DNA of 38,490 bases from Candidatus Darwinimomas equi (GTDB lineage Bacteria > Bacillota > Clostridia > Lachnospirales > Lachnospiraceae): contig JAGHSD010000021.1 of assembly GCA_018066045.1 (NCBI GenBank), positions 1 to 38,490 of the forward strand. The letters run 5' to 3'. Numbering within the stretch: the first letter of the stretch is position 1; each line of letters begins with the position of its first letter. The notes beneath the pieces were generated by a model, which searched no databases, was not told the origin of the DNA, and was given only the letters and a program-made list of their open reading frames with translations. Below are positions 960 through 28,200 of this stretch, piece by piece. The translations under genes were made by a program, and so were the position numbers.

Positions 960-978
960 ATTCTTTCCTCCTCCCTGA

Positions 979-1824: not shown

Positions 1825-1877
1825 TATAGTTTCCTTCCTGCACATAATGTTCGTGCATTTTTATTAAGTATTCAAGG

Positions 1878-2797: not shown

Positions 2798-2818
2798 TTC
2801 AGTTCCTCCTTTCCCTCA

Positions 2819-3496
2819 TCAAGCCTTTACGGTTTCTTTCAGAGTAATAAGAGCCTTCTTCGGTCCGGGTACTGAACCCTTAACAAGAATAAGGTTCTTC
2901 TCTGTGTCGATTCTGACAACTTCGAGATTCTGAACTGTGATCTGCTTAGCACCCATATGTCCGGGCATTCCTTTACCCTTTCTTACGCGGCTCGGATCTG
3001 CTGATGAACCGTTAGAACCCTGATGACGATGGAACTTGGAACCATGAGCCATAGGTCCTCTGTGCTGACCGAATCTCTTGATAGCACCCTGATAGCCTTT
3101 ACCTTTTGAAACTGCAGTAGCGTCAACCTTGTCGCCTGCTGCAAAGATATCAGCCTTGATTTCATCCTTAACTGAATAATCAGCTGAATTCTCGAATCTG
3201 AACTCACGAAGGAATCTTCCTACAGGATAAACATCTCTCTTTGCACCGTTTGCCTTCTCAACAACTTCACTCTCGATACCAGCCTTTGCAAGCTGTCCGG
3301 CTACCGGCTTGGTTACGAGCTTAGCTCTGACGCTGCCGAATGCAACCTGAACTGCCTCGTATCCGTCGTTCTCTGCTGTCTTTACTGTAGTTACTACACA
3401 AGGACCAGCCTGAAGAACTGTTACAGGGATTAACTGACCGGCTTCATTGAATACCTGAGTCATACCCACTTTTGTTGCAAGTATTGCTTTCTTCAT
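2819..3496 (-). CDS. rplC: 50S ribosomal protein L3
   Basis: [35 protein letters not shown]...[16 protein letters not shown]. Confidence 0.95.
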
Positions 3497-3602
3497 TTTT
3501 TCTCTCCTTACTTCCTACAAGCGGAGCACTGACTTTCGTGCTCTTTATATTGGTAGGGTTTTTTGTTTCGTTGTTACCTTTGCTCTTTCCTTCAGCCGCA
3601 GA

Positions 3603-3914
3603 TTATTTCATCTTTATATCAACATGAACTCCTGCAGGCATCTCAAGTCTTGAAAGTGCGTCGATTGTCTTCTCACTCGGAGCGATAACATCGATGAGTC
3701 TCTTATGAGTTCTCTGCTCGAACTGCTCTCTGGAGTCTTTGTACTTATGAACTGCTCTCAAGATCGTAACTACTTCCCTCTTGGTTGGAAGCGGAACCGG
3801 ACCTGAAACCAGAGCACCTGTCTTCTTAACAGTATCAACGATCTTAGCTGCTGAACTGTCAACCAACTGATGATCATAAGCCTTAAGTGTGATTCTCATT
3901 ACCTGACTTGCCAT
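3603..3914 (-). CDS. rpsJ: 30S ribosomal protein S10
   Basis: [34 protein letters not shown]...; ATG at 3914 preceded by AAGGAGGC. The upstream ORF extension to 4172 is leader RNA, not protein. Confidence 0.95.
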
Positions 3915-4202
3915 AAAAAAAGTCGCCTCCTTTTCGAACTTTCGGTTCAACAAGTGGTGACTGTACACATGCCCGTGCGTGTCCATATCGGACCCATTTT
4001 TTGCCCGGCTTAAACCAGGCGCACGTTTTCCGTTTGCGTGAGTTTCTCCTATAAAGGGGACTTGCGCATGTTTCCTGATATGCTGTACAGTGACTTGTCG
4101 CCATAATGCATAAATGACCTTCGCTCCACGAAGTTCCCTGCAAGTGCTTCGTACTTGTTGCACCCACAGCAATTTTCGTTTCGTAGCTATCTAGTCACAG
4201 CT
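3915..4202 (-). ncRNA. Structured 5' leader of the S10 operon (candidate r-protein autoregulatory or attenuator RNA)
   Basis: Hairpins on the minus strand: CAAGU/ACUUG (4141-4157), CUUCG/CGAAG (4119-4133), long-range stem CAAGU-ACUGUACA-CAU (4080-4097) with AUG-UGUACAGU-ACUUG (3951-3970), and a CGUGCG/CGCACG stem enclosing two smaller hairpins. Confidence 0.6.
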
Positions 4203-4207
4203 TGTCC

Positions 4208-4236
4208 ATAATAACAAAAAAAAGTGCCCTTTGCAA
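4208..4236 (-). promoter_or_regulatory. Predicted sigma-A-type promoter of the S10 operon: -35 TTGCAA (4231-4236), 17-nt spacer, -10 TATTAT (4208-4213)
   Basis: Direct reading of the minus strand; -10 is 5/6 and -35 is 4/6 consensus with 17-nt spacing. Confidence 0.55.
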
Positions 4237-4246
4237 GCACTTTTTT
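4218..4246. terminator. Bidirectional intrinsic terminator downstream of the ABC transporter gene
   Basis: AAAAAAGTGC - 9 nt loop - GCACTTTTTT perfect stem. Confidence 0.75.
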
Positions 4247-4326
4247 AAATTTTTACAACTTTCCCGGGCGTGTCGCAGATATTTAGTTCCGGCTCCCGTT
4301 TTTGCCACAATATGTAGTCTTTCAGG

Positions 4327-5991
4327 CTATTTCAGTTCTATAATGCTATCGCTCATCTCAACTGCAGCCGGGCGATGCGTTACAGCCACGCATGTCACTC
4401 CCGGGATATCCTTTATATTAGAAAGAACTCTTCGTTCGGTCTGAGCATCAAGCGCTGATGTAGCCTCATCAAGTAAAATGACAGGCTTCCCACTGAGTAC
4501 TGCCCGTGCTATGGAGATCCTCTGGGCCTGACCTTCCGAAAGTCCGAGGGCATTTTCCCCGATGCGTGTATCCAGCCCGTCGGGAAGCTCTCCGACGAAC
4601 TTATCCATATCTGCGGTCTTTACGGCATTCATAAGTTCTTCGTCTGATGCCTCCGGTCTGGTAAGCAGCAGATTCTCCTTTAAAGTACCGCTGAAAAGCA
4701 TATTCCCCTGCGGGACATAGGCAAAAAGGTTCCTTGTACTGCGGTCGATCTGAAGTTCTTCGTTGCCTGTTTCTTCTATATATAATCTTCCGCTGTCCGG
4801 TCTGTATACTCCCGGCATCAGTTTAAGTAAAGTAGACTTTCCGATTCCGGACTGGCCGGTTATCGCACAGAATGAACCCTTTCTGATTTCGAAGCTGACA
4901 TCCTGAAGAACATTCTCCTGATCCTGGGCATCTTCATATCTGAAGCAGATATTCTCGCCTTTAATTGATATCATCTTTTCGTACACGGTTTCTGCATCTA
5001 CCGGAGCAATGGCACTATCCGGCGTGTCGTCAGCATTTAACTCGTAAATTTCCCTGATACGCTCCGCGCTTCCGACTGCCGCCGAATACTTCGGGATGAT
5101 TCCGGACATGCTGATGAGCGGGCTTTCTATCCTGGCAAAAAGCTGAACCATGGCTATCAGGGTACCGAAGGTCATGACCCCGGACCTGATGTTGACCGCA
5201 CACCATACCAGCACGCAGAATTCTCCGATGAGGAAAACCGCATTCAGTCCGCCGCTGGTCAGGAGGCCGAGATTCTTTCTCCTGAGCTGAAGTCTGTACC
5301 TGTCTTCAAGTGCCTGATTCTCTCTTTTCTCAATTTCCTCCGCCGCATCAAGTGCCTGGATGACGAAAAGTCTTGATATGGACTCCTGTATGAATGAATT
5401 GACTCTTGCGTTGGCTTCTCTTGTTTTCTTGTGAAGCTCCCTGATCCGGTCGCGAAGCAGCGCCGAAATAATTATCAGTACTATTCCCGCGATGCACAGT
5501 ACTACCGTCATCTTTATATCTAACTGACCCATGATTATGACCGCCGATATCAGCTGTGTTAATATCCCGAGCACTCCGGGAATCAGTGAAATCAGGCCTG
5601 AATCAACCGTGTTTACATCGGCATTCATCCTGTCCAGCAGATTTCCGCTGTGATAAGAAGAAATCTTCTGATAGTCCGTATATAAAACCTTATGCATCAG
5701 GACCGTCTTCCAGCTGCGGTCCATCCTGTAGCTGATTTTTTCCGCAAGATGCCGTCGAAACAGCCTGATGGCAAGTGATACAAGCACCATTACCGCAAGT
5801 ATGATCACAGTCAACCGGAGATCTTTTCCGTTCGCTCCGGTCGCTGCATCGATAACATCCCGCGATGCGAGAGAATACCGTACGCTGATGTATGCCCCGG
5901 CCATAGTCAGGACAGTAAGAATAACAAGCGAAGGAATATATCTCTTCACCTGCTTAAACAGCCATGAAATTGTGGAATGGTCTTTGGTCAT
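4327..5991 (-). CDS. ABC transporter, fused permease and ATPase (homodimeric exporter type, no C39 peptidase domain)
   Basis: N-terminal TM helices; Walker A GQSGIGKST, signature LSEGQAQRIS, Walker B VILLDEATSALD, H-loop VAVTHRP. ORF track starts at 6099, but that part overlaps a hairpin; start at 5991 (MTKDHSTISWLF) preferred. Confidence 0.9.
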   Translation of the reverse strand: MTKDHSTISWLFKQVKRYIPSLVILTVLTMAGAYISVRYSLASRDVIDAATGANGKDLRLTVIILAVMVLVSLAIRLFRRHLAEKISYRMDRSWKTVLMHKVLYTDYQKISSYHSGNLLDRMNADVNTVDSGLISLIPGVLGILTQLISAVIIMGQLDIKMTVVLCIAGIVLIIISALLRDRIRELHKKTREANARVNSFIQESISRLFVIQALDAAEEIEKRENQALEDRYRLQLRRKNLGLLTSGGLNAVFLIGEFCVLVWCAVNIRSGVMTFGTLIAMVQLFARIESPLISMSGIIPKYSAAVGSAERIREIYELNADDTPDSAIAPVDAETVYEKMISIKGENICFRYEDAQDQENVLQDVSFEIRKGSFCAITGQSGIGKSTLLKLMPGVYRPDSGRLYIEETGNEELQIDRSTRNLFAYVPQGNMLFSGTLKENLLLTRPEASDEELMNAVKTADMDKFVGELPDGLDTRIGENALGLSEGQAQRISIARAVLSGKPVILLDEATSALDAQTERRVLSNIKDIPGVTCVAVTHRPAAVEMSDSIIELK

Positions 5992-6012
5992 TGTGTAAGT
6001 TTGTGTGGGTAT

Positions 6013-6041
6013 ATTGTAGGACATGTTGAGGAAAAAAACAA
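6013..6041 (-). promoter_or_regulatory. Possible promoter for the ABC transporter gene: -35 TTGTTT (6036-6041), 17-nt spacer, -10 TACAAT (6013-6018)
   Basis: Motif reading only; -35 is weak (3/6) and lies in a T-run. Confidence 0.3.
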
Positions 6042-6068
6042 TAAAAAGCAGACAGCTTATGTGCCTGC
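6032..6068 (-). terminator. Intrinsic terminator between the small peptide gene and the ABC transporter gene
   Basis: Minus strand GCAGGCA - CATAAGC - TGTCTGC stem followed by TTTTTATTGTTTTTTT. Confidence 0.55.
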
Positions 6069-6087
6069 AGGATTTAAAAATGTAATT

Positions 6088-6114
6088 CGGGCCTGGCAAT
6101 AACTGCCAGGCCCG
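6088..6114. terminator. GC-rich 11-bp perfect hairpin downstream of the small peptide gene (terminator or transcript-stabilising hairpin)
   Basis: CGGGCCTGGCA - ATAAC - TGCCAGGCCCG; only a weak U-tract follows on the minus strand. Confidence 0.55.
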
Positions 6115-6126
6115 TATTATGCGGAA

Positions 6127-6315
6127 TTAATAATTACTCTGTTCTTCGTCTGAGCTTTCCGGGAATTGCCAAGGATTACCAAAAATAGACTTTTCTTCAT
6201 TAAGTAATACTTCGGCTCCTGCTTCTAATGAGCCACACACAACCGAAGAATAAACAAATTCAACGAATGTTGCTTCCGGATGAACATATTCTTTTTTTTC
6301 AGTATTACTCCTCAT
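6127..6315 (-). CDS. Small orphan peptide (62 aa from ATG at 6315, or 64 aa from GTG at 6321), of unknown function; precursor-like
   Basis: MRSNTEKKEYVHPEATFVEFVYSSVVCGSLEAGAEVLLNEEKSIFGNPWQFPESSDEEQSNY; strong promoter directly upstream; adjacent to an ABC exporter. Confidence 0.65.
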   Translation of the reverse strand: MRSNTEKKEYVHPEATFVEFVYSSVVCGSLEAGAEVLLNEEKSIFGNPWQFPESSDEEQSNY

Positions 6316-6323
6316 ACCCACGC

Positions 6324-6353
6324 ATTATACTACATATCATATACAATCGTCAA
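6324..6353 (-). promoter_or_regulatory. Strong sigma-A-type promoter of the small peptide gene: -35 TTGACG (6348-6353), 18-nt spacer, -10 TATAAT (6324-6329)
   Basis: Direct reading of the minus strand; -35 5/6, -10 6/6. Confidence 0.7.
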
Positions 6354-6364
6354 TTAACAAATTA

Positions 6365-7219
6365 CTAAAATGCCACTCCATCTTCAGCATTTGTGATATT
6401 CTTATCCCTTTCAGCAGTGTACTCTTTTCTCATTTCAGTAATCCAGTTCAGGTATTCCCGCGGAGATGGTGCAGCTTCATACAGGATCAGCTTTTCCTCT
6501 GCTGTAGTGTAATTCAGGAAATAGTCATATGTGAAATTCTCATTATTTCTGGCTGCTTCGAAAGGATTCTGTTCCGAAACGCCCCCGGAATCGTCTTCTT
6601 CTCTGTCATCTTCTTCCACAGGTGTAACAATCTCAGGGACTGTTTCATCTTCAGGCCTGTTATCCGTTGACGTTTCTTTCTCTGCTGCAGTTTCTTTCTC
6701 TGCTGCAGTTTCCTTTTCTGCTGTAGTTTCTTTCTCTGCTGCAGTTTCCTTTTCAACTGCATCACCCGATGTTTTTTCCGTACTGCTCTTTGAGGTATCA
6801 TTGAGAGTGTTTTTTCCGGTTTTACCATTTGAAGAATAATCAATACTGCTATTATCAAACAGTGCCTCTTCATCCTCGGCTTCCATAATAAACATCTCTT
6901 TTGCCTCAGCTGCGCTTTCAGTCTTCTCAGCTTCCCCTGATTTATCAATACCCGGATTACTTTCTTCTCTGCCAATTGCACTGGGTTCCACTGTATCATC
7001 CTTGGACGGAGAGATTATCATCTCCCCATCCGTAATTTCTGTTTCCCGGCAATTGCCCGAATCCCCTTCATATGAACTTCTCGGAATTATATTTTGACTC
7101 CCTGATGATTGCTGCACTACATACTCCGTTGATTCATTTTTTTCCGCACATTTATTAACGCACACTATCAGGAGTATAAAAACCGCCAGCCCAATTAATA
7201 TAATAATTACTTTTTTCAT
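6365..7219 (-). CDS. Membrane-anchored or lipoprotein-like acidic protein with Glu/Thr-rich hexapeptide repeats, probably cotranscribed with the mega-protein
   Basis: N-terminal hydrophobic segment MKKVIIILIGLAVFILLIVCVNKC, then a low-complexity acidic region with (A/T)AEKET repeats and a compact C-terminal segment; starts 14 nt after the mega-protein stop. Confidence 0.75.
   Translation of the reverse strand: MKKVIIILIGLAVFILLIVCVNKCAEKNESTEYVVQQSSGSQNIIPRSSYEGDSGNCRETEITDGEMIISPSKDDTVEPSAIGREESNPGIDKSGEAEKTESAAEAKEMFIMEAEDEEALFDNSSIDYSSNGKTGKNTLNDTSKSSTEKTSGDAVEKETAAEKETTAEKETAAEKETAAEKETSTDNRPEDETVPEIVTPVEEDDREEDDSGGVSEQNPFEAARNNENFTYDYFLNYTTAEEKLILYEAAPSPREYLNWITEMRKEYTAERDKNITNAEDGVAF
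6672..6761 (-). repeat. Five tandem 18-bp units encoding EKET(A/T)A-type hexapeptides
   Basis: GTTTCTTTCTCTGCTGCA and close variants repeated in frame on the + strand reading. Confidence 0.9.
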
Positions 7220-7233
7220 GGCTTACTCTCTTG

Positions 7234-10200
7234 TTATTCCGGTACCTTGTATGAATTTGAAACAATACCTGTGCCTTCTGGCAACTGAAGAACCGAAGAT
7301 CTCAGTTCTCCCGTCAAATTAACCATTTTGCCCGGAAGTTCTATTTTGTAGTTGTTATATTTAATGGCAATAAGATACGTTGTGCCCGGTTTGTCCACAT
7401 AGGACTGTCCGTATTCTTTGATCAATCCATCTGAATTTATTTTAAATCTGTGGTATTTATCACCAATATATTGTTCGCTGCAGGATTCCCATCTGATATC
7501 TGCTATCAAATCAATTCCTGATACTCCTGATGACAAGTATTTGTATCCATCCGCATTCCCAAATTCAAATCTGTATCTGAATCTCAATACATTATTGTCA
7601 ATTACACCCACTTTGCTTGAATATGTAAATGCATAATACAGTATTCTATATCCGCCGTTCTCCTTATCAAACAGAGGTACCCATCCATATCTTGATGATG
7701 TTGTCACGCGATCAGCTCCATCATCCATCAGTAAAATACCCTCTGCATCGCTTGGACTGCCGATAAGTCCCGGTGTCCTTATTAATCCAACTCCGCCGTA
7801 CTTATTGGCAGCACTCTTATCAACTACATGACCGGAAATAAACGTGAATGATTTACAATCAACAGTATGTCCGTTCAGGTTGAACTCGATATCAGCAGCA
7901 TTCATATAATCCGTATCCGGATGAGATATATCCTTCAGCAATATGATCTGATCTCCCGGAATTGAATCATGGAACGCATATTCAAGTTTTTCGTACTTCA
8001 TATTCGTTCTTGTATTCTCAGCTTCCGCATTAACAGGATCATTGTAAACGACTTTATGCGGATACTTCGCTCTCGTTTTCTCATCCTTGTTTTCCGTACA
8101 GATATAATCTTTATCGCAGAAATCCGTCACATGCTCTTTATAAATTCCGCCTCTGAGGACTATCCTGGCATCACTGCCGGATGCTGACAGATGTCCGTAT
8201 ACTCTTGCTCCATCACTGAATATCTCGATGAGTGCTTCATCCTCTGCCTTAATATCGCCTGCTATGTCCACGCTCGGAGTTGCCCGATTTATATGAAGCT
8301 CTGATCCATACCCTGTTACGGATATCGCCACGGATTCATCCTCGGATGCAGTTGCAATCTTACCGTTGTACATATCAAGCTTCGCATAATCACTCAGGGA
8401 AATGCTTCCGGTCAATGTGTTTCCGCCTAAATCAAGCGATATCATATCTCCGCCTATCCTATTTACAGTTACATTTTCCTCGGTATCCTTAAGCAGTGTT
8501 ACTGCTGCTATATCCATAGGACGTACTCTGTATGAATAGATATCATCAAAAGGTGCCTGAAGCGAATTGTATGTATACTCTGTACCACTCTGTAATGTAA
8601 TCTTTGCAACCGGATCTTTGGCTCCGAGAGTCCACGGATAATCGGTCTTTGTAGACTTGTCCGTGTTCTCAACCCAGTCGGGTTTCTGAGGGCTCAGAGT
8701 GATATTGTATCCTGGCTGTTTACGCTTTGTTTCAATATCATTCTTTGTATCATCATCATATATACCGCTGTTTACATGCAGTTCCGGATTCCCTGACAAT
8801 ACTTCATAAACAATCTTTTTAAAGCTGCCCTCTTCATATACAGTCTCTCCGCCACCTGATTTCAGATTAATATCCGTATATGTTCCGCGATCACAGATCA
8901 GCTTTCCGCCATTCTGCTCTACTGTAAGACCGGTGTATTTTGCTCCGTTAAAAGTAAGCTCACCGCTTGCTTCAACTATGTTCAGACTATCAGTTCCCTC
9001 GATATTTACACCATGTCCGAGCAACAGACTTCCACCTTCAATACTGAACAGTTTTCCGCTTCCTGTAATAGTAGAATATGCGTTTGAATCATTTACAATC
9101 AACGGTACTTTCTGAGAACTTACTGTAATTGCAGCATTTGTCGGACTGTTTACAGTAATGGTATGCTTGTTTAGTTCAAAATAAACATCCGTTCTTTCAT
9201 CATCTGCATTAAATTCAACCCTATCACTGTCTCCTATCGTTATATCTTTCAGCAGCCAAATATTATCCGCATCTTCATCAGCGCTGGCTTTTTCAAATGC
9301 TTCTTTAAGTGATGTATGATATGTATCGGGTCTTGCTATTCCATCTATTACCTTGTAACTCACATATGCAACCGGATCCCCGAGTGTCCACGGATACAGA
9401 TCTTTTGTTAAATCATCTGTATTTGTTACCCATCCCGGCTTCAATGGATTCAGAATGATATTGTATAATAGTGCTCTCTTGGCTTCGATATACTCCTTTG
9501 TAAAGTCATCGTATACACCTCCGTTGATAGAGCATACCGGAGAGGTATTCTGAGGTTCATAGATAATATGTGCATACTTTCCGTCTGTTAATGTAATGCT
9601 GCCTGCCGACGGCTCCAGTTTAAGAGCAGTAAATGTTCCCGACTTAAACTCAGTATAACTGCCGGGGCCGTTCTGCTCAAATATCAAATCATCTGTAATT
9701 CCTTTGATGCTGATACTGTCAGCAAGTGTCAGTTCTGCTCCGTTATCAAACAGTCTTCCGGTTCCTTCTATCTCACCGTTTTTAACAGTAATATCGATTC
9801 CCTGGCCTACCGTGATTGCAGCCCTCAGAGACTCTGCTGTCAATCCTATTGAGAGTGTATGTGTACCGAGGTCAAATGTATAATTCTTCGTTCCCGGGAT
9901 ACCGTCTAACTTTTGTGCGACAGCCTCTTCTCCTGTTACTATCTGTGCATCCTTAAGCAGAGTGATCTGATAAGTAATCTGATAAGCTGCTGCATCCGCA
10001 TTGGCTGTATCAAATGCAGCTTTAACAGATGCATGATATGTCGGATTCTTTACTGCTCCGGTCACATCCGCAAGATAGTCAACCCTTGCGACAGCACCGT
10101 CCCACTTTGCATAGAGCCAAAGTGGATTCGGGTCTGTATCAGCGATAGTGCGGGTTTCAAAAATCCACTTCTCACCCCAGTCCGGATTACCTGCAGCGTC

Positions 10201-13200
10201 TTTGTTTACTGTTCCGTCTTTGGTGTACCATGCATCGAAGGTAACTCCTTCTTTAGTCATGGCTGCTGGTTTTATTACTCTTTCACCGATTGAAACAGTC
10301 TGATCTTCTGGTGCAGGTGTGCCACCCTTGGCATCGAATTTAACTACTCTGCCCCTGTCGATCGTCCACGGATGAGATGCCAGACCTGATTTCTTCCAAC
10401 AGTAACCTGCGGGAAGTCCTACATTGTCAAATGCAGTCTTGGCCTTCTCTGTATAGAAGCCTCCGGTTATATTTAGTTTGTCCTCTTCTGATGCAGGCTT
10501 AGGAATATTAGTTCCACCCGAAATATAACCTCCGGTGATTCCACCGGTGATTTTACCGGTCTGCGGATTATTGACATAGACAACATTTCCGTTATCACCA
10601 CCAGCTTCTACAGTTCCTCCGCTTATACTAAATGCACCATATTGATTAAAGCTGATAACATTTGTGGCGGCTGTTATTGCTCCAGCGGTAATATTGACAC
10701 CACCGCCTTTTTGAGTCTGCGAGTCATCATTTACCTTAAAGGCAGTCTTTAATGAGTATATCGTCCCCGCACCCTTGACTGAAAGTGTAGATCCACTGTC
10801 AACAGTAAACACTGCAGTATCTACCAAATGTTCTGAGATATCGTAATCTGCAAGATTCAGGGTCATGTCATTTTTGACATCATATGTCCCATACGGCTGA
10901 CCTGACACCGGTTGTGCATTCAGTGAAGATATAAAATTATCCAACAGTTTCACGCTGATAGAAACATCGATATAGTCTCCGGCTATTCCGTATATCGCCT
11001 TATTCGCCTCGTCTAAAGCCTCTTTAAGAGTCTTGTAATCCTTATCGATCACGACTTTGATCGGCTGATCCACCTCGGTTTTCAGTTTGCCTTCGATCTT
11101 GAGATGAACTCTATCCTTCCAGTTTGCCTTCAGATTATAAGGCTTATTGATTACTGTGGTTTCGAAATTGAAATCTGCGTTTCCGTCCTTCCAGCTTGAC
11201 AATACATAATTCTTGTCGATCGGAGTATACTCACTTGGAACCGGCTTTCTCGCTTTTCCTCCTTCATCTATCCACTGAGCATCCGGAACTTTTGAAGTTA
11301 TCTTTTTAGCATCTGTGTTTCCTGTGTCGAATGTAACCTTATACCTGTATTCTGCGGTAAACAGAGTATCCTTACTTGCTGTATAGGACTCTCCGCCCTG
11401 ATACAGAAGATTATTGGCATCACATCTCCACCCCTTGCATTCACTTCCGTTGCCCTTATTTGGACGCGCTTCAACAGTTATGACAGTTCCCTTGGGGACA
11501 TAAAATGCCTCCGGTACCGCAGATCCACCCTTGGAATCATATTCTATCCTGACCATTTCATCTTTAGGCTTATTTCCTTTTTTGCTGTTAAACAGCAGTT
11601 CGAATAAACCAGCTGTTATTGCAACAGCTGCAATAGTACATCCGGTGATAGCCAGCGTTTTCAGACTCACCATCGTCTTTGCCTTTAATAAAGCATATGT
11701 TACTGTAACCGTAATAGCTGTACCGGCAGTGATGACAAATATCTCTTTAAGTGCTTCCAGTGATCCGTGGTTCCAGTTGATATTTCCTCTCGCACTACCC
11801 GGATCTATCGCATAGTCTCCCTCACTGACACAGGTACTGGCTTCTGAAGCGCAGTCGAATTCGTCAACGCCCTGCATCTTGATACCACAGTCTTTGCCGT
11901 TGATGGTCGAATTATTAAGTTTCAGATCGACCTTTCCTCCGGTTTCCGGAGTTCCATATTCTGCTTTAAATGAATTGATACCATCATTTGTGGTTCCGGT
12001 TATGCGACTTCCGCCCTCGACCTTCAGTGTGACTGTCTTCGCTGCTCCTGACCCTGAAGCTGACGGGTTTACGGTTATTCCTGTAGTACCGGTTACCGTA
12101 GATCCTGTCACTGTCATCGCTCCGCCATCAACGCTCAGGGCTGCAGCGGCAGCGCTTGTAACAGTAAGACCACTCAATACTACCGTTCCGTCTTTGGTCT
12201 TTACAGCTGTACCGGCATTATTGATGACTTTTCCGTTTTTGACCGTTACATCTCCGCCCGTAATCTGAACAGCGCCCGAAAGCCTGCTTGCCGGATTTGC
12301 AGTGATGGTATGTCCGCCAAGATCAAGTATCAGTTTTTTGCCGGTTATCACGATCGGCTCATATACCGTTACATTATCAAGAACTTTAACTATCTCTCCC
12401 GGTAATGCCGCATCTACTGCATCCTGAATAGAAGAGAAGCTTAACTCCTTTCCGTCCCTTACTATCTTAGCGACTCTGTCTCCCCATCTTGCATAGAGCG
12501 TCATACCGGATGTGACCGCGTCACTTCCGAAGTTCCACTTTCTTCCCCAGTCAGGTGCTCCTGTTGCAGGATCCAGCGCGCCGCTCTTTGTAAACCATCC
12601 GTCAAAAATCTTTGTATCTGAAGGCTTATGAGCAAATTGCGGTTCTTCTTCTTTTGTGATTACATGACCGTGATCATAATATCTTACAAGATCCGCCGTA
12701 GAACCGCCTTCGAAGGTTCCGCCGTTGCCCTTAAATGTAACCGCATAATTATTGATACCTACAGAATAACGATATATTGCACCCGCACCATTATCTATAA
12801 CTCCGTATCCATCGTGCAGCATTCCCATGTGGCCGATCGTCCTGCCCGGATACAGCGATGATGCATCGTTCGGAGATATGCTGAAGCTTCCTCCGGTTAT
12901 ATCTCCTGCAACACCTGTCAGTGAAGATATCTGAGTAATATCATACCTCACAGCACCCTGGAAATTACCGCCTGAGATTATGATGTCCTTGCTTGTTTCA
13001 CTGACAAACTTGACCTCCAGTGCAGAACCGCTATTGTTATTGATACTTCCGTTCTTATCGCTGCTGCTGTCAAGTATACTAATCTTTCCTGCAGACTGAA
13101 CTGCCGGAGCGCTTCTGTTTACAGTAATACTCTTACCGTTCAGATCAAGTGTTATATTTCCTGCAAATTCAAGTGTCTTTGCAGTCTGTCCTGAAAGCGG

Positions 13201-16200
13201 ATAGCTGTTCTCAAGCTTCAGTGTGCCGCCCGTATGCTCATACGCATATTTAACGGCCTTTTCAAGATCGTTGAATGCCAGTGTCTTTGTACCCACTGTA
13301 TATATAGCCGCCATATCTGAACTGCTGATTACCTCATAAGGATATGTACCGTCTTCAGTTCTATTCAGCCATACATATCCATCAGCAAGCTTCACAGCTG
13401 TTCCATTTACAGAAGCATATGCCTCACTGTCATACAGACCTCCTGCCAGAGTGATATTTCCGGTCTTTTCCTGAGATGCAGCTGCACTCATAGCGCCTCT
13501 GATTTTGCCTGCGATTATCTCTGCATCACCCTGTCCGACAGATATTGAACCGCCCTTGAGACCGGTATTGTTGATAAGCCCGTATGCCGTCTTATCAGCT
13601 GAATCTGTTATCGTCAGCTTTCCGGAACCTGATTTACTGATGAGACTTCCACGGGCTATAGATCCTGTCAGATTCTTACCTTTCAGATCCACAGTCAGTC
13701 CTGTCTCCAAATCAAATGCAAGCGTTTCATTTATATCGCAGTTATCCAGGAGTGTAAGAGCAGCCGTTCCCTCTGTAAATGCATTTGCTGCTGCCACCGC
13801 ATCAGCGATAGAATTATAATTCTTCGTTTCTCCCGCATGTTCAAGAGCTGCCACGGCATGTGACCACTTTGCAAAGAGCTCTACATCACTCTTAATCTCA
13901 TTATCAAAGCTCCACTTGGTTCCCCAGTCACCTGTCGATCTTCCGTCCTTCTCGAACCATCCCTCAAACGCCAGATCCTTAACATACGGAGTCACCTCTT
14001 TTGCCTTCTGTCCGTATTCTACGGGCTGCGGATTAACTGTCACATCCTTATTGAGCGTGTTAAATGTTACTGTAAACTTCCTGATGCTTACCTGCTTCGG
14101 ATAAGCAGTCTGCGTCTCCGTATCAGTATTGTCTGTAACTTCGTATCCTTCTTTCAAGTATCCTTCAGAACTGATTACTCCGGATATCTCTTTTTTACCC
14201 GGTGCCTCGCTGTAGATACCACCGTAGATATCACCTGCAGGCTTCTGTCCCTGCTGAACATTTTCATAAACTATGCTGCCCTGATATCTTCCTGAACCTA
14301 TGCTCAGTTTCTTTGAAGGATCGCTCATACTGATCACTATTCCTGATGATGCAGTATTGCTTAAGCTTCCTTCCGCTTCTGTTCCGTCCACTGAACCAAC
14401 TCCTGTTTTGCCGTAAACAGTGAGATTTGCTCCGACAACAGATATAAGCGGCTGTCCGGCAACACTACCACTCAGTGCATAATCGTTAAGGTCTATCTCG
14501 ACATTCTTATAAAGAACATATGATGTATTCTTCTCATAGTTATTAAGAAGTTGCAGGATTCCTTCATCCTTTGTATTTGCAAATGTTACCGCATCTTCAA
14601 ATGTTGCAAAGTATTCTGTATGTTCAATCTGTTCTCCGCCCTGGCCTTCAGTCATCCATGTATATGAAGCAACCTTATCAGCATCATGTACTACGGCATA
14701 CGGATAATCCTCGGAAGTTCTGTATATCCAGTCGGAATTCTCAGCCAGAGTGATATATGTTCCCGTACTCTTTCGGTCATATTCACCGCCATTCAAGGTG
14801 ATAGTCGCATGAGCTGTATCAAGTGAACCTGTTGAGAAAGCACCCTTGATCTTGCCTCCGTTTATCGCAACCTTTGCACTCGAATTTCTGGAGCTATCAT
14901 AATATACAGCACCTCTCCTGCCGGTTATATATCCTGATGCAATAGTCAGTGATCCGTCTGCGATGCTGATAGCATCTCCTGATTCATTGCTGTTTTCTAT
15001 ACGTCCTGTCGTGACTGTGCTGTCTTTGAGGATCAGATGTCCCTTACCCAGAATCCTAAGCAGAGCACCCTCTGTATTTCCTGTTATATCGTATCCGTTA
15101 AGATCAAGTGTAAGCTCTGCTTTCTTATCATTGAATTCACTCCATGTATGCTCTCCTGCCGGTATATCGACATTTGTCATGAGCTTCAGTACTGCATCCG
15201 GATATATTGCTTTTTCTGCCGCATCTTTTGCCGCATCTGACAGGTTTTCATACTGCTTTACTACAGTCTTGCCCTCAGCATCAGTATATGATACCTCTGC
15301 CAACGCATCTGCCCATGCTGCTCTAAGTGTCAGATTTTCTGTCACTACATCCGTATCAAAGTTCCACGGTTCATCACTCCATGTCTGCTCATCAATCTTT
15401 GCATACCATCCGCCGAGAACTTTATCCGTAAATGAAGCTTTCGGACGAATATCCTGTCCGATAGTCTTTCCATATTGAACTGTTACTGATGAAGGACCGT
15501 CAAGAGTACCGCCGTTAGCATCATATGTAACCTCATAGCTGGTTTCACTAAGTAGTACTACCCTATATGGATATGCATTCTTAGTAGTTGCATCCGTATT
15601 GTCAGCAACACCATATTCCGGATTGATAAATGTCTTTTCCGGCTTATCACTGTAGATACCACCTTTGATTGCACCGGTATATCCATCAGCTATTCCGCCT
15701 GCTCCCTCATATGAAAGCTTACCCTTTATCTCTCCGCCTGATATCTCAAGCTTCATACAGTTATTCCAGAATCCTGCTGCTATTCCATCAGTGCCTGCTA
15801 TGATTCCGTCAGCGGGGGCAGTTATAGAACCGCTGATCATCTTGATGCCGTCGTAGTTGAAATCTGACCATATTGCATTGTATCCTTCGATTGCAACACC
15901 ATCTATGATAAGTGTATCATCCTTTACAGTTTCATCTCCAAACAGTGCAACTGCATATGAATTACCGGATGTACTGTTGTTGATGATTCTTCCTCTTGCG
16001 GTATCACCCGTTGAAGAATCTGTGATCTTAAGACTCGTTCCGTCTACCCTGATTACACAGTCTGTCAGGCTTCCTGAGATATTCCGTCCATTAAGATCAA
16101 GCGTGATATTCTTATCTATAACAATTGTTGACGCTGCCTCTACAGTCTTATAAAGTGTTACTGTATCTGTATCTGCATCTGATGCTGACGCGAGAGCTGC

Positions 16201-19200
16201 AGTCAGACTCGTATAGTATTCCGGCCTGGTCAGTCTTGTTGATATGATACTTGCTTCTGCCTCATCCCACTTAGCGTGGAGAGTTATTTCTGCAGTTACG
16301 ATATCTTTTTCAAAGTTCCACTTTTCTCCCCAGTTTCCTGATGTTGTTCCGTCCTCCTTGAACCATCCGCTGAATACCCATCCTTCAGCATAAGGTTTCT
16401 GTGGCTCAACAACCTTGGCACCATATTCTATTGTCTGTGGCTCAACTGTTACACCGTCTTTATGGGTGTGGAATGTTACCGTATACGTATTGGTGGTCCA
16501 CTTAGCATACAGAGTTGTATCCTTTGTTATGGTATCTCTTTCGAAGTTCCACGGTTCTCCCCAGTTTCCTGATTCAGTTCCATCTTCTTTGAACCATCCG
16601 TCAAAGGTATATCCTTTTTCTGTCGGATCTTCCGGCTTTACGACTTTGCCGCCGTTAGCCACATACTGAACATCATAATAAGTGTCTCCATGTCCGTTCA
16701 GTTCAAACTCAACTCTGAAGGCCTGTCCTACCGTGTATGGATAGGCTATCTTTGTAGCTTCATCTTTATTATCCAGAACACCATAGCCTTCCGCCATATA
16801 CGAACGTGCAGACTTGTCGCTGTAATATCCGCCTGTGATATTACCGTGATTGGTCATTGATCCTGCACCTGCATACTCTACAGAACCCTTGAAGTATCCA
16901 TCGCTGATGTTCAGTGATACAACGCTGTTCCACCATGAAAGTGATGTACTGTACTCAATACCTGAAGCACTTATATATCCACCGCTGATATTGAGAGTAT
17001 GATAATTCCAGTCGGAAACCACTCCGTTATAACCGGATATCGTTCCGCCTGTCATAGTGAATGCGTATTCATTTGTTTCATCATCAGCAGTCAGGATGAC
17101 AGCATATGAGGCAGGATCAGTGCTTGTATTTTCTATCTTTCCTTCCTTGCTGATGGATGTATCTGTAACGGTAAATCCAGCATTTTCAACAGCGATGATG
17201 TATCTGTCATCATTTCCCGACAGAGTCTGACCGTTCAGATCAAGAGTGATGCTGTGATTTACGGTCAATGCTTCCGTCACTTCAAACGGTTTAAGGAGCT
17301 TTACAGTATCTCCATTCTGTGCTGCCGCAAATGCTTCCTCAGCAGTTCTGTAATATGTCGTATTCTGTGAATCAATAACAACAGCCGCTGCCTCTGACCA
17401 CTTTGCGTGGAGAGTTACTGCTGCGGTTACGGTATCATTTTCAAAGCTCCACTGATCTCCCCAGCTTCCTGACTTTGTTCCGTCTTCTTTGAACCAGCCG
17501 TCGAAGAGATATCCGATTTCTGACGGAATTGGCGGTTCTGCTATCTTACCGCCATGTGCCACAGACTGACTTGCAATCTGTGCGCCGTGTTCATGCATAT
17601 CAAAGGATACTTCATACTTATTCTGATCCCACTTTGCGTGGAGAGTCATATTACTCTTTACAGGATCTGTAGTGAAGTTCCATGCATTATCAAACGATCT
17701 GTCCTTGAACCAGCCTCCGAATGTGTATCCTTCTTCCTGCGGCGTCTCAGGCTGTTTAGCCATCTCACCGTACGGAACTGACTGAGTATCGATCTGCTCA
17801 CCATGTCCGTTCATATTGAAGTAGACATTGTAGTTTTTCTTAGCCCACTTTGCGTAGAGAGTCATATCCGACTCTACAGGGTCCGTATCAAAGTTCCATC
17901 TGTTCGCACATTCAGGCTCCCTGAACCAGCCTCCGAATTCATATCCTTCTTCAGATACTGCCGATGGAGTCGATATGGTTGCCATCGGAATCACACTCAG
18001 AGTTGCCGGCTGTGGTTCTCCGTGTCCCTGAAGGTCAAAGCTTACTGTATAGTACCTCTCGTCAACTATGAAAGGATATGTTTTTTTATCTTCGTCGGTA
18101 TTTTCATAGAAGCGGGCCTGAGTTCCCTCCGCCAGATACTCTGAATAGTCTTTATTGAATTTACCGCCGATTATACTGAGTTTCGGATTCGCACCCATCT
18201 CGCTGATATTCCAGCGTCCTCCGGTAATAACTGCCCTATGGTTATTAAGGTCGAGTGCTCCTGCGAAATCTATGCTCTCTGCAAACTCAACTCTGCCAGA
18301 TCCAAAAGTATCCATATACAGATTTTCGATAGTAGCTCTTGAAGCGGAACTGTTGTCAAATTTAGCAACGGAACCGCTGGCGATACCTATAGTACCTATA
18401 GTACCTATAGTACCTATAGTACCTATAGTGCCACTCGTAGTTGTCGTGAATGTGTGTCCTGCCAGATCTATCGTTACGGTATATCTGTGTGATTCTTCGT
18501 CTCCTATATAAACGCTATCTTCTAATGATACCGCGTCGAGTAATGTAATCGTCTCAGTCCTGTCTGCATCTGCCAGTGCATCCCTAATGGTACGATAGTA
18601 AATCGTATCATTATTTACTCTTGATATATTTGGTACACTTGCAACACATATTGAAATATTATCTACTGACCACGGATATACTGCATCTTTGACATTCCTT
18701 ATTATTCCCTTGCCGGTTTTGATAGTTGCAAAGGTCTGGTCAGGTGAGAGATTATAGTTTCCGCCATTAATATTTATTTTACAATTGCTGTCAGCTGAAC
18801 TTTTCCCCTTCCAGCTTCCCAGTTTGAAGTTGCCTCCTGTTACATCAGCTGTGTAGTTATTATGAGTGTTATCATCATCATACATCCAAGTATCAAGTTC
18901 AAAATCACCGGAGCTGATGCTCAGCTTCTGGTTGCTTCCGTTTCCATTTGCAGAGATAATTGTGTGTCCCTTATGGAATCCTCCGTTTATTGTCAATACA
19001 TCCTTATCACATGATAACGCAGCTATTCTGTCTCCATACGTGTTGACATTATTAAGTACAAGTGAAGTATTATAGGCATTCAGCCAGAACAATGCCGTTT
19101 TGTTATTCTCATCTGCGGAGCTGACGGTTCCGTTCTGAATAGTGATTGTCTTGCCCTCACCGTGTACAGTCGGAAATCTTGACACAAGTGTCTTACCGTT

Positions 19201-22200
19201 AAGATCTATCGTAAAGGTCTTATCAAGATTCAACTGCTCACCTGTCGCTGAATCACCTCCGACTACGATTCCGTCTTTTAATACATATACGGTAGACCCA
19301 TCAGATGCCTTATTTACCGCTTCCGAAAGTGAAGCAAAGTATATTTTCTCTACCGACCCGTTGTTTATCCTGTATGCTTCTGCCTCTGTCCACTTTGCGT
19401 GAAGAGTTATGTCTGCTGTTACAGTATTTTCTTCAAAGTTCCACTTTTCTCCCCAATCCGAACCGGTACCATCTTTTGTGAACCATCCGTCAAACAGATA
19501 ACCCTCCGCTGTCGGATCTGCCGGTTTGGTTATATTGCCGCCATGTGCCACAGACTGACTTGCGATCTGTGCGCCGTGTCCATGCATATCAAAGCTGGCT
19601 GTATATTTTTTGATAGTCCACTTGGCGTAGAGAGTCATATTACTCTTTACAGTATCTGTATCAAAGTTCCATCTGTTTTCACATCCGGACTCTTTGAACC
19701 AGCCATCAAATGAGTAACTTACATCTGACGGAGTTGCCGGAGCTGCAAATGTATATCCGGCTCTTGCTTTCACAGGAGCTATCTCCCCGCCATGACCGTT
19801 GAGAACAAAGGATACTGTGTATCCCTTGTCTACCAGATATGGATAGTCATTCCTATCAGCGTAAGGATTATCGAAGAAATAGCATCCTGTCGCCAGACAA
19901 CCCTCTGAAAGTCTGGTATTAAACTTTCCTCCGGATATCCTGAGCTTTCCTGACTCAATGGATGGAAGGGACATTGTACTAATCTTCCACTTGCCGGATA
20001 TAATTTCAGTTTCACAGTCTAATAGTCTGACACTTCCTTCGACATTTACATTTTCAAATATGATCTTGCCACCCGCGGAGTTACCTGTGGTAAAGTTGGT
20101 AAATGTGCCATTTTCATTACTGCTTGTGATATTAAGTGTTGTATCCTCTGCTACCGAAATCGTTTGCTTATCTGAAGATGTAAGCTTCTTACCATTCAGA
20201 TCAAGGGTTATGGTTTTCCCTGCATCCGAGCAACTTACAGTAACGGACTCTTCCAGAATCACATCCTTGCAGAGAGTCACCGTCCTTGTCTCATGAACAT
20301 CATTAAGAGCCGCACCTATCGTACGGTAATATATATTATTCTTTGGGTTATCTGCAGGCACTGCACCCGGTACATATGCTTCACATTCCTCTGCTGATCC
20401 TACAGTATACTGGTATGGAGCATATTCAGAATCATGATTATCCGGATAATTCTTTACGATACTTGATCCATCAGCGATAGTAATCCTTGCGTCATCAGGA
20501 TCAAGGTTGAAGTCTGCAGAAAGCACAGTAGTCGTCCCATAGGATGTACTGCCTGCCGGAGTTCCCCATTCGCCAAGCTTAAACTGTCCACTAATGATAT
20601 TTCTGGTTATGTTAGTGTGACGTGGATAGTGCGTAAAGAACCACGATTCAAGCTCATAAGTTCCTCCCTCAACTTCCAGCTTAGCACGATTTCTGTCCGT
20701 AATTTGACCTGATACCAGACTGCATGCATCCACATTGGAATTTCTGAATGCTACCCCGGTCAAAGCAGTCAAATCCGAACTGAAATCGACCGGACAGTAT
20801 CCTGCTATGCTTACACTTGCAAAAGAGATCTGTGCTCCGTTTTGTAACTGGAACATAGAAAATGCATAAGGATATTTGCCGGATTCATCTTTTGCCGACA
20901 TGGTCGTCGTAATATTACCATTTTTGATTTCAACAATTGAACTTACCGGAATATCTCCAATTCTTTCTCTGTTTCCCGCATCTCTCTGTCCGCCAATTAT
21001 CAGTGTCTTTCCATTCAGGTCAAGGATGACATTCTTGCTGAACTTAATTGCCTCGTGAACTGCTGTTCCATCTTTGTCATATCCTTCTTTTCTTACGGTC
21101 AGATCCTTAAGCAGAACAACCGTATCCCGCGGTATGATTCCAGTAACATTATCAAGCGCATCTGAAAGCGAAGCATAATATATCTTCACATCCGTACCGG
21201 ATTTCTCCACATATGCTTCAGATTCTGCAATTTTAACAATGGTATACTTGTAATCAGATGCTGTATCCGGATTATTCTGTACTCCATAACCATCTGCGAT
21301 GTGCGATGCATTCGGAGCAATCTTAAACAATCCTCCGGTAATATTTATTCTGGCTGATTCGGCCTTGCTTAAGACTCCATCGTATTTACCGGCTTTTATT
21401 TCAAGTAATGCACTATCTTTGACTTCGATATCTCCTGTTATCTCTATATCAGAACGAGATACCTCTGTATCGGATGTCACTGGTTTCAGAACTCTGATTT
21501 TAGCATTTGCAGATGCGTCTGATACTGCCCGGGACAACGAATAATATCCCAGACCTTCGATGTTTTTATCTGTATCAGAATAGTTCTCTGCTGCTGCGTT
21601 TTCTTTTTTATCGACTGTGTACGGATAATCAGCATCCCCTGATCTGAACTGGCGATGAGTTGCAGAATTGCCTGCGTATAATCTGCTGTCAAGTTTATGA
21701 GTAAACAGACCGCCGGTTATCTTTCCATAGTTTCCTTCAAAACTGTTTCCAACAATAATAGAGCCTTTGAATTTACCGGAACTGATTGCAATATCTTCAA
21801 CGATATTTTGAGTATCTTTTAATGCATTCCCCTGAGCAGTAATATTCAAATTAGACAAATCAATATCATAGTATTTAAACTCTATTCCATTGTATCCTAT
21901 ATAATTTCCGGCACTGATCTTCAGGGGTATCCAACCGTTTTGATTCATTAACCTTAAAACATAGGCTGAAGAACTATCACTCTTATTTTCTATTGTTCCG
22001 GCGCTTTCTCCTGAACCTGCTGCAGAACTGTCAATTATTGAAAGCTTAATATTTTCAATGTCCAGCAAAGGTCCCGCATAGTTTCCTGTGATTGTCTTTC
22101 CGTTTAAATCAAACGTAACGGCAATACTGCTGCTTCTTTTCCATAAGAGGTTCCCTGCCGGGATAGTAATATTCTTAAGTAGTGTAACCGTGCTTCCATC

Positions 22201-25200
22201 ACCAGCTACATCCATTGCATCCGAAAGTGAAGCAAAATAAACTGCAGTGCTTTCACCTTGTTTCTTCAGACTGGCTTCTGCCTCTGTCCACTTTGCGTGA
22301 AGAGTTATGTCTGCTGTTACAGTATTTTCTTCAAAGTTCCACTTTTCTCCCCAATCTGAACCGGTACCATCTTTTGTGAACCATCCGTCAAACAGATACC
22401 CCTCCGCTGTCGGATCTGCCGGTTTGGTTATCTTGCCGCCATGTTCCACAGACTGACTTGCGATCTGTGCACCATGTCCCTGCATATCAAAGCTGACTGT
22501 ATATTTTTTGATCGTCCACTTGGCGTAGAGAGTTGTATTTTTTGTTACTTTATCAGTATCAAAGTCCCACTGATCTCCCCAGTTTCCTGATGATGCTCCG
22601 TTCTCAGTGAACCAGCCTTCAAATGAATGGCTTACATCTGACGGAGTTGCCGGAGCTGCAAATGTATATCCGGCTCTTGCTGTAACAGGAGCTATCTCCC
22701 CGCCATGACCGTTGAGAACAAAGGATACTGTGTATCCCTGATCTACCAGATATGGATAGTCATTCTTGTCATCATCAGGATTGTTGAAGAAATAGCATCC
22801 TGATTTCAAAAGATCTTTATCATCCCATGTATTGTATCTAAATTTTCCCCCGGATATCTTGAACTCTCCCTGTTCATGTTCACCCGGTGTCGGACGGCTT
22901 GCCCTGTCAATCCACCACTTACCTGATTTTATCTCCGTTTTATATTTTGTAATTCCGAGATATCCCTTGACATTTGCACCATCAAATATGATTGTGCCGC
23001 CTTTACTTCCGGAAGGTGGATAGACTGTTCCGAAGTTACGAATTGAGCCGCCTTCAATACTGCTTATTATTATAAGTGTTGTATTTTCTGCTACGGAATA
23101 TTTAGAATCCGTATCTGAGCAGTTAATAGCTTTACCGTTCAGGTCCAGGGTTATCGTTCCACCATCTGCACAGTTTGCAGCAACTGTTTCACTCAGATTC
23201 ACATCCTTGCAGAGCGTTACAGTCTTTGTAGTATGAACATCGCTAAAAGCCGTACCTATCGTACGGTAATATATACCTGCGTCTTCTTCTTTTTCATATA
23301 TGCAATGTTCTTTCGGAAATTTTGCTTCACAGTCTGCTTCTGAAAGCGTCGCAACAGACCAAGGATATTCTGAATTACCGATATTCCTGATAATGCCTTT
23401 ACCGGAAGCAATAGTAATCCTGCGGACTGTACCTTTTCCGTTATTATCTTTCCATTCAAAGTCCGGATTAAGATTAAAGCTGCCGCCACGGATCTCTAAA
23501 TCGACATGTATATAATCTTTAAAACCGGTAGGATCTTCTCCTCTGAATCTCCAGTCAGCAAGAGATGGATAATATCCTCCATCGATGACAGCTTTTCCCT
23601 TAATATTCTGGTTTTGAGGAAGTGAAGATGCTATATAGCGGATGTTATGAGTACCGCCATGAATATATAATTCAGACGGATTCGGATCCGCATGCTCATC
23701 AGTCCAAAAGATTGCAACTGAATATGCATCCAGATTCACATTGTCAAATGAGAGTTTTCCACCTTCATATATTCTGAAAAGAGTATTCCCGTCTCTTTCA
23801 CTTGAATCCTGAACTACATTACCATTGATCATGGATACTGATGCCCTGACAGGAAGATCATAGTATACATTGACTACTGCTTTCAGCTGATGATTATCCA
23901 GATTAAGCGTAATACTCTTTCCAAATTCCGAACTGTTATCGATGTTTGCATCCTTGCGGAGAGTAATTACATCTCCATCTTCAAGAAGACTGCTTGATAA
24001 TGCATTCTTCAATGTATCGATGTAATAATCAATTTTCTCACTTACATCGTACAGGATAGCTTCTCCGTCTATTTCTGTTACAGGAAGGACTATGTACGGA
24101 TAATCTTCTCCCGTAACCTTCACTCCATACCCTTCTGCAACGTATTCCTTCTTAGGAGCATTCTTGAACAATCCTCCTGTAATGCTTATTGTAGCTAATT
24201 GGGTCCTGCTAAAGACTGCATCGTATTTTCCACCTGTAATTGTGAGCACTCCTGAAGCTGCATGAATTGTTCCGGAGAAAGTGATTTTCTCGGATTCATT
24301 GGATATTACAGCATCTTTAAGTACAGTAAGTGTTGTTCCCGGTGTAGCTTCTTTTACTGCATCTATTACAGAGAGGTAATATATACCTCCGTCTTCTTCT
24401 TTTTCGTATATACAATGTTCCTTCGGAAGTTTTGCTTCACAGTCTGGTGTCGGACCTACACTATACTGATAATCGCCTGTTCCGGTCTGATCATCAGCCC
24501 AATTCTTTATAATGCTGTTTCTATTTCCGATAGTGATAAAGCTCTGGTCAGGTGAGAGGTTGAAGTTGCCGGCATTAATAACGGTATCAATATGTCTGTC
24601 TGAAGGCGAACGGGTTCCTTCCCAGCTGCCTATCGTAAAATCACCGCCGTTAATAGTTGCCTGATAATTATTATGAATCGCATCATTATCGAACAGCCAG
24701 CTTGTCAGGTTGAACTTTCCGCCGTTTATTACAAGTGTCTTTCCTGTGCCGGAATTGTTTGCAGCAATCAGCGTATGTGCGGTTATTGTATAGTCGTTCG
24801 AATTGTTTATAACAAGACCGCAATTATTAAGGTTTCCTGTCAGGCAAATCGGACTATATCCCCTGACATTGACATTATTCAGCGTAATAATATTTCTGCG
24901 TGTATCAAATCCCTGGAACTGGAACATTGAGTCTTGTTTATTATCAACATCATAAACAGCAGAATTGACAGTTCCGTTTTTTATTATCAGATAATCTTTG
25001 ACGGTTATATTTCCACTCTCATGAACAAGAAGAGTCTTGCCATTCAAGTCAAGTGTGATATCTTTTGTAAATTGTGCCTTCTCTGTTCCGGGAATATCAC
25101 CGTTTGATATAGTGATTCCATCCCTAAGCAGATGAACTGTATCATTATTATCAGCAGCACTGATTGCCTGAGTTAAAGTACAGTAATACTGTTCTTCTCC

Positions 25201-28200
25201 GGATTGCTTCTTTACATAAGCCTCAATATCATCCAGTTTTTTTACAGTATATTTATATATGCCTTCATCAATATTAACCCGTTTATATCCATCCGGGATA
25301 CACTCTGAATCAGGAGCCTCAGAGAAGAATCCTCCGGTAATGCTTATTCCGGCTGTCTCATCTTCACCGGTTGAAAGAACAGAATTATACCATCCGCCGG
25401 TTATGTTTACACTTCCTCCGTCTTCTGTCGAAAATGTCAGATTGCTGTATTTTCCGGCGCTGATATTTATTACAGCATCTGAGCCTTTTGCTTTCAATTT
25501 TCCACCCAGTTTTCCATTTCCGGATGTCTCAAGTGTTACATTCGCAGAAATCTCGACTGAATTATCTGTAACCTCCTGAAGGATACGTATAGTATCCCCG
25601 GATTCCGCATGTTCTGCTGCTGTGCTTACAGCCTCGGCTGCAATATCTTTATTCTTTGATGTATTTACTAATTCGGCCTTTGCCCTGGCTGCTGAATATA
25701 CTGTATACGGGTATTCTGCTGCGGTATTATCATCAGGATTAAAAAATACGCGATACTGTCTTTCTGAGTATTCTCTTTTGGTGTATTCGTAATAGCGATA
25801 CAGATAATTATCTCTTATCCTGTTGGTAAACATGCCTCCTTGTATTCTATAATACAGGTTCGCGTTTACGGGATAGTCTTTGTACTCGATATTTCCTTTT
25901 ATTTTTGGTATGTATGATCCGGAATCAGCTATGTTTATCTCAGCAGAAGGCGAATTAAACAATATTGCATACCCGTCAGCATTGTCTGCCAGAACAGAAA
26001 CAGCTGCACGAGCCTCATTGATAAAGACATCTGATTCATAAAGATATATCGCATTTGCTCCTTCAATGATTCCGCCGTAAATACGCATTTTTACATAAGA
26101 GCCTGATGTCGAGTAAATTGCATAGGAATTACCGGATGTCGATTTATTCCATATCTTTCCTGTTCCGGTTGAATCAGATATGTTGACATGCAGCATATTA
26201 AATGTCAGCAATCCTCCGTTATCAAATTGTCCGGATAAAGTATGTCCATTCAGGTTCAAAGAGATGGTAGTGTATGCAGGTACCCTGTTAAAATCAAGAT
26301 GCTTACCGTTTTCAAGCGTAATATCCTTTAGCAGTCTGAGCTCATCACCGCCACTCATGTCATTAACAGCATCTGATATCGAAGTATATTCTATTGTGGT
26401 ACTTCCCCTTATAATGCTGACTTCAGCCGTACCTACCATCCAAGGAAAATCTGTTTTTGTAGCAGCATCGGTATTGGATATAAAACTAAGTCCACTGTCC
26501 AGGGAATCTGCGAAAGAATTACGGGAGGTATTATCAAACAATCCTGCTTTTACGGTTATTCTGTCTTTTCCCTCTGAAACGGTTATATTCTTATATGATC
26601 CGCTTACTATATCAAGATGTCCGGATTCGGATACCTTGATATTTCCGTTGGCAAAAACGAATGATCCGAAATCGAAAGTAATGCTTTCCTTAACTTCTGC
26701 TTTTTCTTCAGCATCATATACCGATTTAAAAAGGCTGATCGTCTGATTAGAACCTGCATCTGATACCGCATCTTTTAAAGAAACGTAATATGTGTTTTTC
26801 TGTTTATTATAAGCCGCTGCATTTTCACTGATTCTCTTTACAGCATACGGGAATTCCTTATATGTACTGTCAAGGAACACTGCAAAACCCGGTTCCAGAT
26901 TATTCTTTGGTGGGTCTGCATAATAACCTCCGGATATATTTATAGAACTATTTGATTCATCAGTATTAAGCATTTTCCCGCTAATTCTGATGTTCGAGTC
27001 TTCCGGTATGATAAGAGTTCCGGATTTTTCAACAGCTATAGCTCCCGGCGCAGCCCCGTATATCGTTCCGGATTCAAGCGTAATCTTTGCTCCCTCTACT
27101 CCAAGTGCATATTCACCCTCAGTTGCTCTTAGCGAGTAGTTTCCCAGCGAAAGTATATATTCATTATTTATCCCGTTTTCTTTACGGAATACAACATGGT
27201 CTGTTACATCTTTCAGCAGTTCAATGGTTGCTCCATTATATTCAGATGATGCGTTCATCAACTTAGCAGCGGTCTGAAGATCTTCGAAGTAGCTTACCGT
27301 TCCTCCTGCGCTTGTCACCTTTACAGTAACAGGAACTATCTTATAATATTCATCATCCGATTTAACCGCCTTGTATCCTTCAGCCAGATACTTTTCAACC
27401 CGCTCGCTTTTGAAGTAACCTGCAGTAATTTTCACATCTCCGGTTCCGGTAATATTCCCATCAAAATATGCCTTAGCATTAGACAATACCGCTTCTCCGG
27501 AGATGGCGATACCACCTGTCACCTTTACTGGCATCTCGTTATTTATGAACAGCTTCGATCCGTCAGCTACAGTGATGCTGCCGTCGAGTATTCCATCTGT
27601 AAGATGCAGTTTTGTGTTACCGGAAATCACAAGGTTTTTTTTGATTGTTTTTCCGTAAAGATCTATGGAAAAGTCTTTTCCATTATCTGCATTTATTGAT
27701 TCTTCACCTAATGCATTTGTAACGATAACTACTATATCTCCGTCAGATGCCGTCGCAATCATGGCAGGAAGTGTTCCGTAGTCTTTTACTCCGTGAATCT
27801 CATCTGCAAGGACAGCCTCATTTCCTTCCGCGCTGGTTACAGTCCAATAGTCACCTTCCTTAATTGCCATATAACCGGGTGCAATATATTCAGGAGATAT
27901 CTCTTTTGCAAACTGTCCTCCGCTTATCTCAATAGAACCGTTACTTTCTGACAATGTTACCGATAATCCGTATGTCCCTCCGCTTATAGAGATTTTTGCT
28001 CCGTCCTTTGCTGAAATGCTGCCGGATTCCATGTTTATTGCAGGGATAATAACATCAGTCGAATCGCCTGATGCTACTAAACTGCCATTTAAATCTCCGT
28101 TCATGAATTTTGCGTTTCCGGATGTTGCAGTTACAGTCCCGGAAAGTGTCTTTCTATTCAGATCAACGGATACGGTTTTAGCTATTGGGAAATCTCCCGA

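Follow-up and report, generated by a model that had tools for sequence, protein, structure and literature searches.

A predicted internal membrane hairpin in a giant B-repeat surface protein of Candidatus Darwinimomas equi

The giant gene and its neighbourhood

The stretch of DNA analysed here (the window) is an entire 38,490-base contig (JAGHSD010000021.1; C145) from the draft genome of Candidatus Darwinimomas equi, a member of the Lachnospiraceae (GCA_018066045.1; 1.44 Mb, 167 contigs, 81% complete). Its main gene is a giant open reading frame (ORF) flanked by two groups of genes. On one side, positions 264–7219 hold a short gene, an ABC transporter and the S10 ribosomal operon; on the other, positions 30603–38490 encode a class B-like sortase, an SPKTG substrate, a signal peptidase, a LytR/CpsA/Psr protein and capsule regulators. 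The surface-protein cluster (30603–34701) lies upstream of the giant gene and contains the following genes:

33041–33700, class B-like sortase
32160–33044, SPKTG substrate
31709–32200, SipW/archaeal-like signal peptidase
30603–31709, coiled-coil-like membrane protein

A surface role of the giant protein is therefore likely from its position beside the sortase cluster, which leaves undecided how the protein is held. The small gene at 6365–7219, located 14 bp past the giant gene, encodes a strong N-terminal transmembrane (TM) segment and a KET-rich stalk, and ends in a short domain that has no match in Pfam or NCBIfam; its product may be a partner to the giant protein.

The giant protein consists of a signal peptide, beta-helix modules alternating with B-repeats, a predicted internal hydrophobic hairpin roughly four-fifths along its length and a C-terminal part of 1451 amino acids, with the following features:

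7234..30432, minus strand, giant ORF of 7732 aa
30340..30432, minus strand, Sec signal peptide MSMQFLTHYKKTIALVLAVTMALLSPMTSFA, aa 1–31, from the sequence, with a putative cleavage site
11746..12480, minus strand, beta-helix module preceding the hairpin, aa 5985–6229, from AF2 and Foldseek
11686..11745, minus strand, predicted TM helix 1 (TM1) EIFVITAGTAITVTVTYALL, aa 6230–6249, from hydrophobicity and AF2
11659..11685, minus strand, basic 9-residue turn KAKTMVSLK, aa 6250–6258, from the sequence
11590..11655, minus strand, predicted TM helix 2 (TM2) LAITGCTIAAVAITAGLFELLF, aa 6260–6281, containing LAITG, from hydrophobicity and AF2
11014..11556, minus strand, two diverged B-repeat-like units beyond the hairpin, about aa 6293–6473, from weak similarity to the B-repeats of relatives
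7237..11589, minus strand, C-terminal 1451 aa with beta-helix modules, B-repeats and a terminal domain, from module homology
10783..12282, minus strand, paralogue-free stretch, aa ~6051–6550, from self-comparison at a resolution of 200 aa

Pfam family PF09479 (Flg_new/List_Bact_rpt) matched 14 stretches of the protein, whose halves scored 175.8 and 312.8 bits where the curated cut-off is 27, which identifies a B-repeat surface protein. A right-handed beta-helix fold was recognized for a single module, the one that precedes the hairpin: AF2 modelled its first 60 residues as a parallel beta-helix (pLDDT ~90), and the top Foldseek match was a pectin methylesterase (probability 1.00, but E 0.02). 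Pectin methylesterase is a right-handed parallel beta-helix. Self-comparison in 300-aa windows from aa 451 onward detected a paralogue for each window except 6051–6350 and 6251–6550, so that the hairpin sits inside the sole internal stretch that is not built of repeated modules. Separately, a TIG tripeptide repeat (TIGTIGTIGTIGTIG) occupies aa 4002–4018 (18379–18429); it has a 9-nt unit, and its length could vary.

The hydrophobic pair and its relatives

The initial annotation had described two hydrophobic stretches joined by the linker KAKTMVSLK, and their sequences, their order and the linker are exactly as described; the window interval also stood, whereas the start given at about aa 6224 was six residues too early, as TM1 begins at 6230. 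Kyte–Doolittle 19-residue averages peak at 1.93 for TM1 and 1.89 for TM2, close to the signal peptide (1.96) and far above the protein mean (−0.35). With the next most hydrophobic segment at 1.70, the pair are outliers of the mature chain. A single 19-residue segment of at least 1.85 is not rare, occurring in 2399 of 3000 composition shuffles of the giant protein, but two of them within 45 residues arose in just 28 of 3000 (~0.9%). Real ORFs are a better null for the pair than shuffles, and 69 B-repeat ORFs (117,000 aa) from relatives within the family and order contained no paired internal hydrophobic segments. Nor was such a pair present among 67 ORFs of at least 1000 aa that either begin like a signal peptide or lack a TM segment. 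The hydrophobic pair is thus real in the sequence and sets the protein apart from its relatives, and it has so far been seen in one protein of one draft genome.

Searches for relatives of the hairpin itself returned none from two congeners, 299 family genomes, 399 phylum genomes, GTDB contigs (two scans), viral contigs, plasmids and phages. Phylum matches at E 0.01–0.1 proved on re-alignment to be chance or gave no alignment, and family matches covered only the B-repeat that follows the hairpin. Loci fetched through the B-repeats or through the pre-hairpin module, and then read, contained no hairpin either. Two kinds of candidate were set aside: elsewhere in the genome (C155), a 2,183-aa ORF has two internal hydrophobic segments that belong to a polytopic membrane protein, and weak internal peaks in relatives (Kyte–Doolittle 1.6–1.8) are single segments, strand-like where the context was read. 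As for the ends of the giant protein, the N-terminal 460 aa gave weak partial matches only, and the C-terminal part had no match in 195 relatives or GTDB contigs; for the terminal domain (7237–8100), none of the genome and contig collections searched yielded a relative.

The true C-terminus (...EGTGIVSNSYKVPE) carries neither a TM segment nor an LPXTG-like signal, as the initial annotation had said, and the last 200 residues contain no TM segment or motif that would mark an LPXTG sortase substrate. The suggestion that the hairpin stands in for a C-terminal anchor fares less well. The giant C-terminus is anchorless, but so are most B-repeat relatives: a C-terminal TM segment is found in nine of the 69 ORFs, some with xPxTG motifs, and the other ORFs lack one or are cut at a contig end. 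Because an anchorless C-terminus is ordinary in B-repeat proteins, there is no need to see the hairpin as a substitute anchor. One further protein, of 359 aa (G000:C32, L169), combines a signal peptide with a C-terminal TM segment and basic tail, without an LPXTG-like motif.

Predicted membrane character of the pair

At this site, a short turn is predicted to join two neighbouring hydrophobic helices. The cores of TM1 and TM2 have no charged residue over 19 positions, and their mean Eisenberg hydrophobicities (0.69 and 0.67) and helical moments (0.05 and 0.03) place them in the classical transmembrane corner. Apparent insertion energies over 19 residues (dG19) were calculated on the 2005 biological scale without position weighting. 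On this unweighted scale TM1 scored 0.20 and TM2 0.45, values that are marginal rather than strongly favourable. Both nonetheless indicate easier insertion than does the signal peptide of the giant protein (1.45), compare with 0.67 for the SPKTG protein of the neighbouring cluster and fall inside the range of nine real C-terminal anchors of relatives (−4.05 to +1.92). The giant protein's best other segment, a beta-strand segment at aa 6083, scored 2.48, and strand-like segments of relatives scored 3.4 and above. Modelled alone as a single sequence, aa 6210–6300 (91 aa) gave AF2 helices at 6222–6250 and 6257–6286 with moderate confidence (pLDDT ~70); in a longer single-sequence construct of 406 aa the hairpin region was unfolded and uninformative.

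TM1 is rich in Thr and Val, and its strand propensity (1.29) exceeds its helix propensity (1.03), which keeps a soluble, strand-rich core among the candidates. The two segments would then be not membrane helices but the buried core of a soluble domain such as a beta-helix cap, a reading that draws on the strand-like TVTVT alternation and on the position of TM1 directly after the beta-helix module. We consider it rather unlikely, given the low helical moments, the helices in the AF2 model and the absence of any comparable uncharged pair from the 117,000 residues of related ORFs.

Insertion of the predicted hairpin into the membrane is likely from these models. The anchor proposed by the initial annotation is upheld in part, as far as its transmembrane-like character goes (hydrophobicity, low moment, AF2 helices and dG19), with insertion and topology standing as predictions. 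Homologous extracellular modules precede and follow the hairpin, so both flanks should be outside; the signal peptide and the basic turn fit this arrangement, but the four lysines that follow TM2 (NSKKGNKPK) would also lie outside, against the positive-inside rule. Finding no homologue of the hairpin in the genomes and contigs searched likewise weighs against the anchor, conservation being the best test of function. We propose that TM1 and TM2 would form a helical hairpin that inserts in the cytoplasmic membrane of the producing cell itself while Sec exports the protein, leaving the basic turn in the cytoplasm and arms of ~6,200 and ~1,450 aa outside, and that the hairpin would tether the giant beta-helix/B-repeat surface protein from within. 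In our judgement this internal tether with both arms outside, its insertion, topology and tethering function all deduced from sequence and models, has about an even chance of being correct.

Alternatively, the hairpin may be fully exported, packing on another subunit or entering a partner membrane rather than that of the producer. Some secreted proteins carry hydrophobic helical hairpins that act on partners or partner membranes. The marginal dG19, the extracellular context on both sides of the hairpin and the many relatives that manage without a membrane anchor would suit such a role. However, paired 19-residue uncharged helices would make a good stop-transfer signal, and searches of Pfam, NCBIfam and PDB sequences related the pair to no known pore-forming or effector family; we regard full export as unlikely.

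Junction, motif and known systems

The initial annotation had also raised the possibility that the hairpin is a fossil junction of two fused ancestral surface proteins. On this reading, the C-terminal anchor of one (TM1 and its KAK tail) would have been joined to the N-terminal signal anchor of the other (MVSLK and TM2). Local features recall such an origin: LLKAK resembles an anchor tail, MVSLKTLAITG resembles the start of a signal anchor, AAAGG stands 8 nt ahead of the ATG of M6254, and the stretch around the hairpin has no paralogue in the giant protein. An internal start at M6254 was nevertheless rejected, since its start signal is not outstanding, ranking 18th of 64 in-frame ATGs (17 score better). 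The two flanks showed no difference in module family or composition, and no split homologue was found. Modules beyond the hairpin belong to the same family as those before it, with ~22–37% identity and E values down to 2e-20 (for example, 34%, E 4e-18), and third-position GC is even along the giant gene (0.30–0.42), which from sequence composition also argues against a foreign insert or an assembly join at the hairpin. No shorter homologue starting or ending there was found among genus, family and phylum genomes or in the contig scans. With homologous flanks, uniform composition and no outstanding internal start, the fusion idea is left unsupported and appears quite improbable.

TM2 also has a superficial likeness to LPXTG sortase substrates, with LAITG ahead and lysines behind. 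The LAITG at 6260 is the sole L[PA]xTG in the giant protein, precedes 17 hydrophobic residues and NSKKGNK, and lies in a locus with class B-type sortase and signal peptidase genes nearby; it hints at an internal sorting signal, at a level within chance. A sortase could accordingly recognize LAITG, TM2 and the lysines as an internal signal, or the neighbouring signal peptidase could cut the hairpin, but we hold this very unlikely. The motif was noticed post hoc, a shuffled stretch yields L[PA]xTG in ~1% of cases and a broader sorting motif arises in 10–17% of shuffles. Moreover, LPXTG signals are C-terminal, whereas TM2 is internal and preceded by TM1; the one clear substrate of the cluster uses SPKTG, not LAxTG; TM2 would need an N-out orientation, in conflict with an inserted TM1; and no good signal-peptidase site is evident. 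The consequence, a single gene whose precursor is cut or transpeptidated at the hairpin into a 6,200-aa protein held in the wall or membrane and a distinct surface protein of 1,450 aa, seems a touch less probable still.

Among known systems, the closest are the related B-repeat (PF09479) proteins, which share the signal peptide, B-repeats, large size and, mostly, the lack of a C-terminal anchor, but have no paired internal segment; three of the 69 (L108, L113 and L118) carry a single strong internal TM segment near aa 350–360, with B-repeats after it. L118, the one of the three that was read, has an unusual receptor-kinase architecture of its own, with a cytoplasmic Ser/Thr kinase-like domain, a TM segment and then extracellular repeats, PASTA-like ones ahead of six B-repeats. 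Adhesin-like proteins of Methanobrevibacter smithii and Methanosphaera combine right-handed beta-helix and repeat domains with TM-helix membrane anchors, which lie at the N-terminus, the C-terminus or both ends (PMC11532034), whereas the predicted anchor here is an internal hairpin. Giant1–5 of Apilactobacillus kunkeei (3,000–8,000 aa) resemble the present protein in size, signal peptide, beta-solenoid and long repeats, but have no predicted TM segment, and their attachment is ascribed to C-terminal SH3b-like domains (PMC12863079). We found no direct precedent in the literature, either for internal sorting signals or for surface proteins anchored by a hairpin.

Together, these results make a membrane anchor the most likely explanation of the pair, as a prediction. 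As a lone predicted case with no homologue in the collections searched, it ranks as a curiosity and not as an established mechanism. If inserted, the hairpin would provide a simple model of Sec-dependent export that stops and restarts after ~6,200 exported residues, and the protein would be a giant Gram-positive-type surface protein held not by an end but from within the chain, with an arm reaching outward on either side. Were this true, the annotation of such proteins would change, because anchor searches check termini only.
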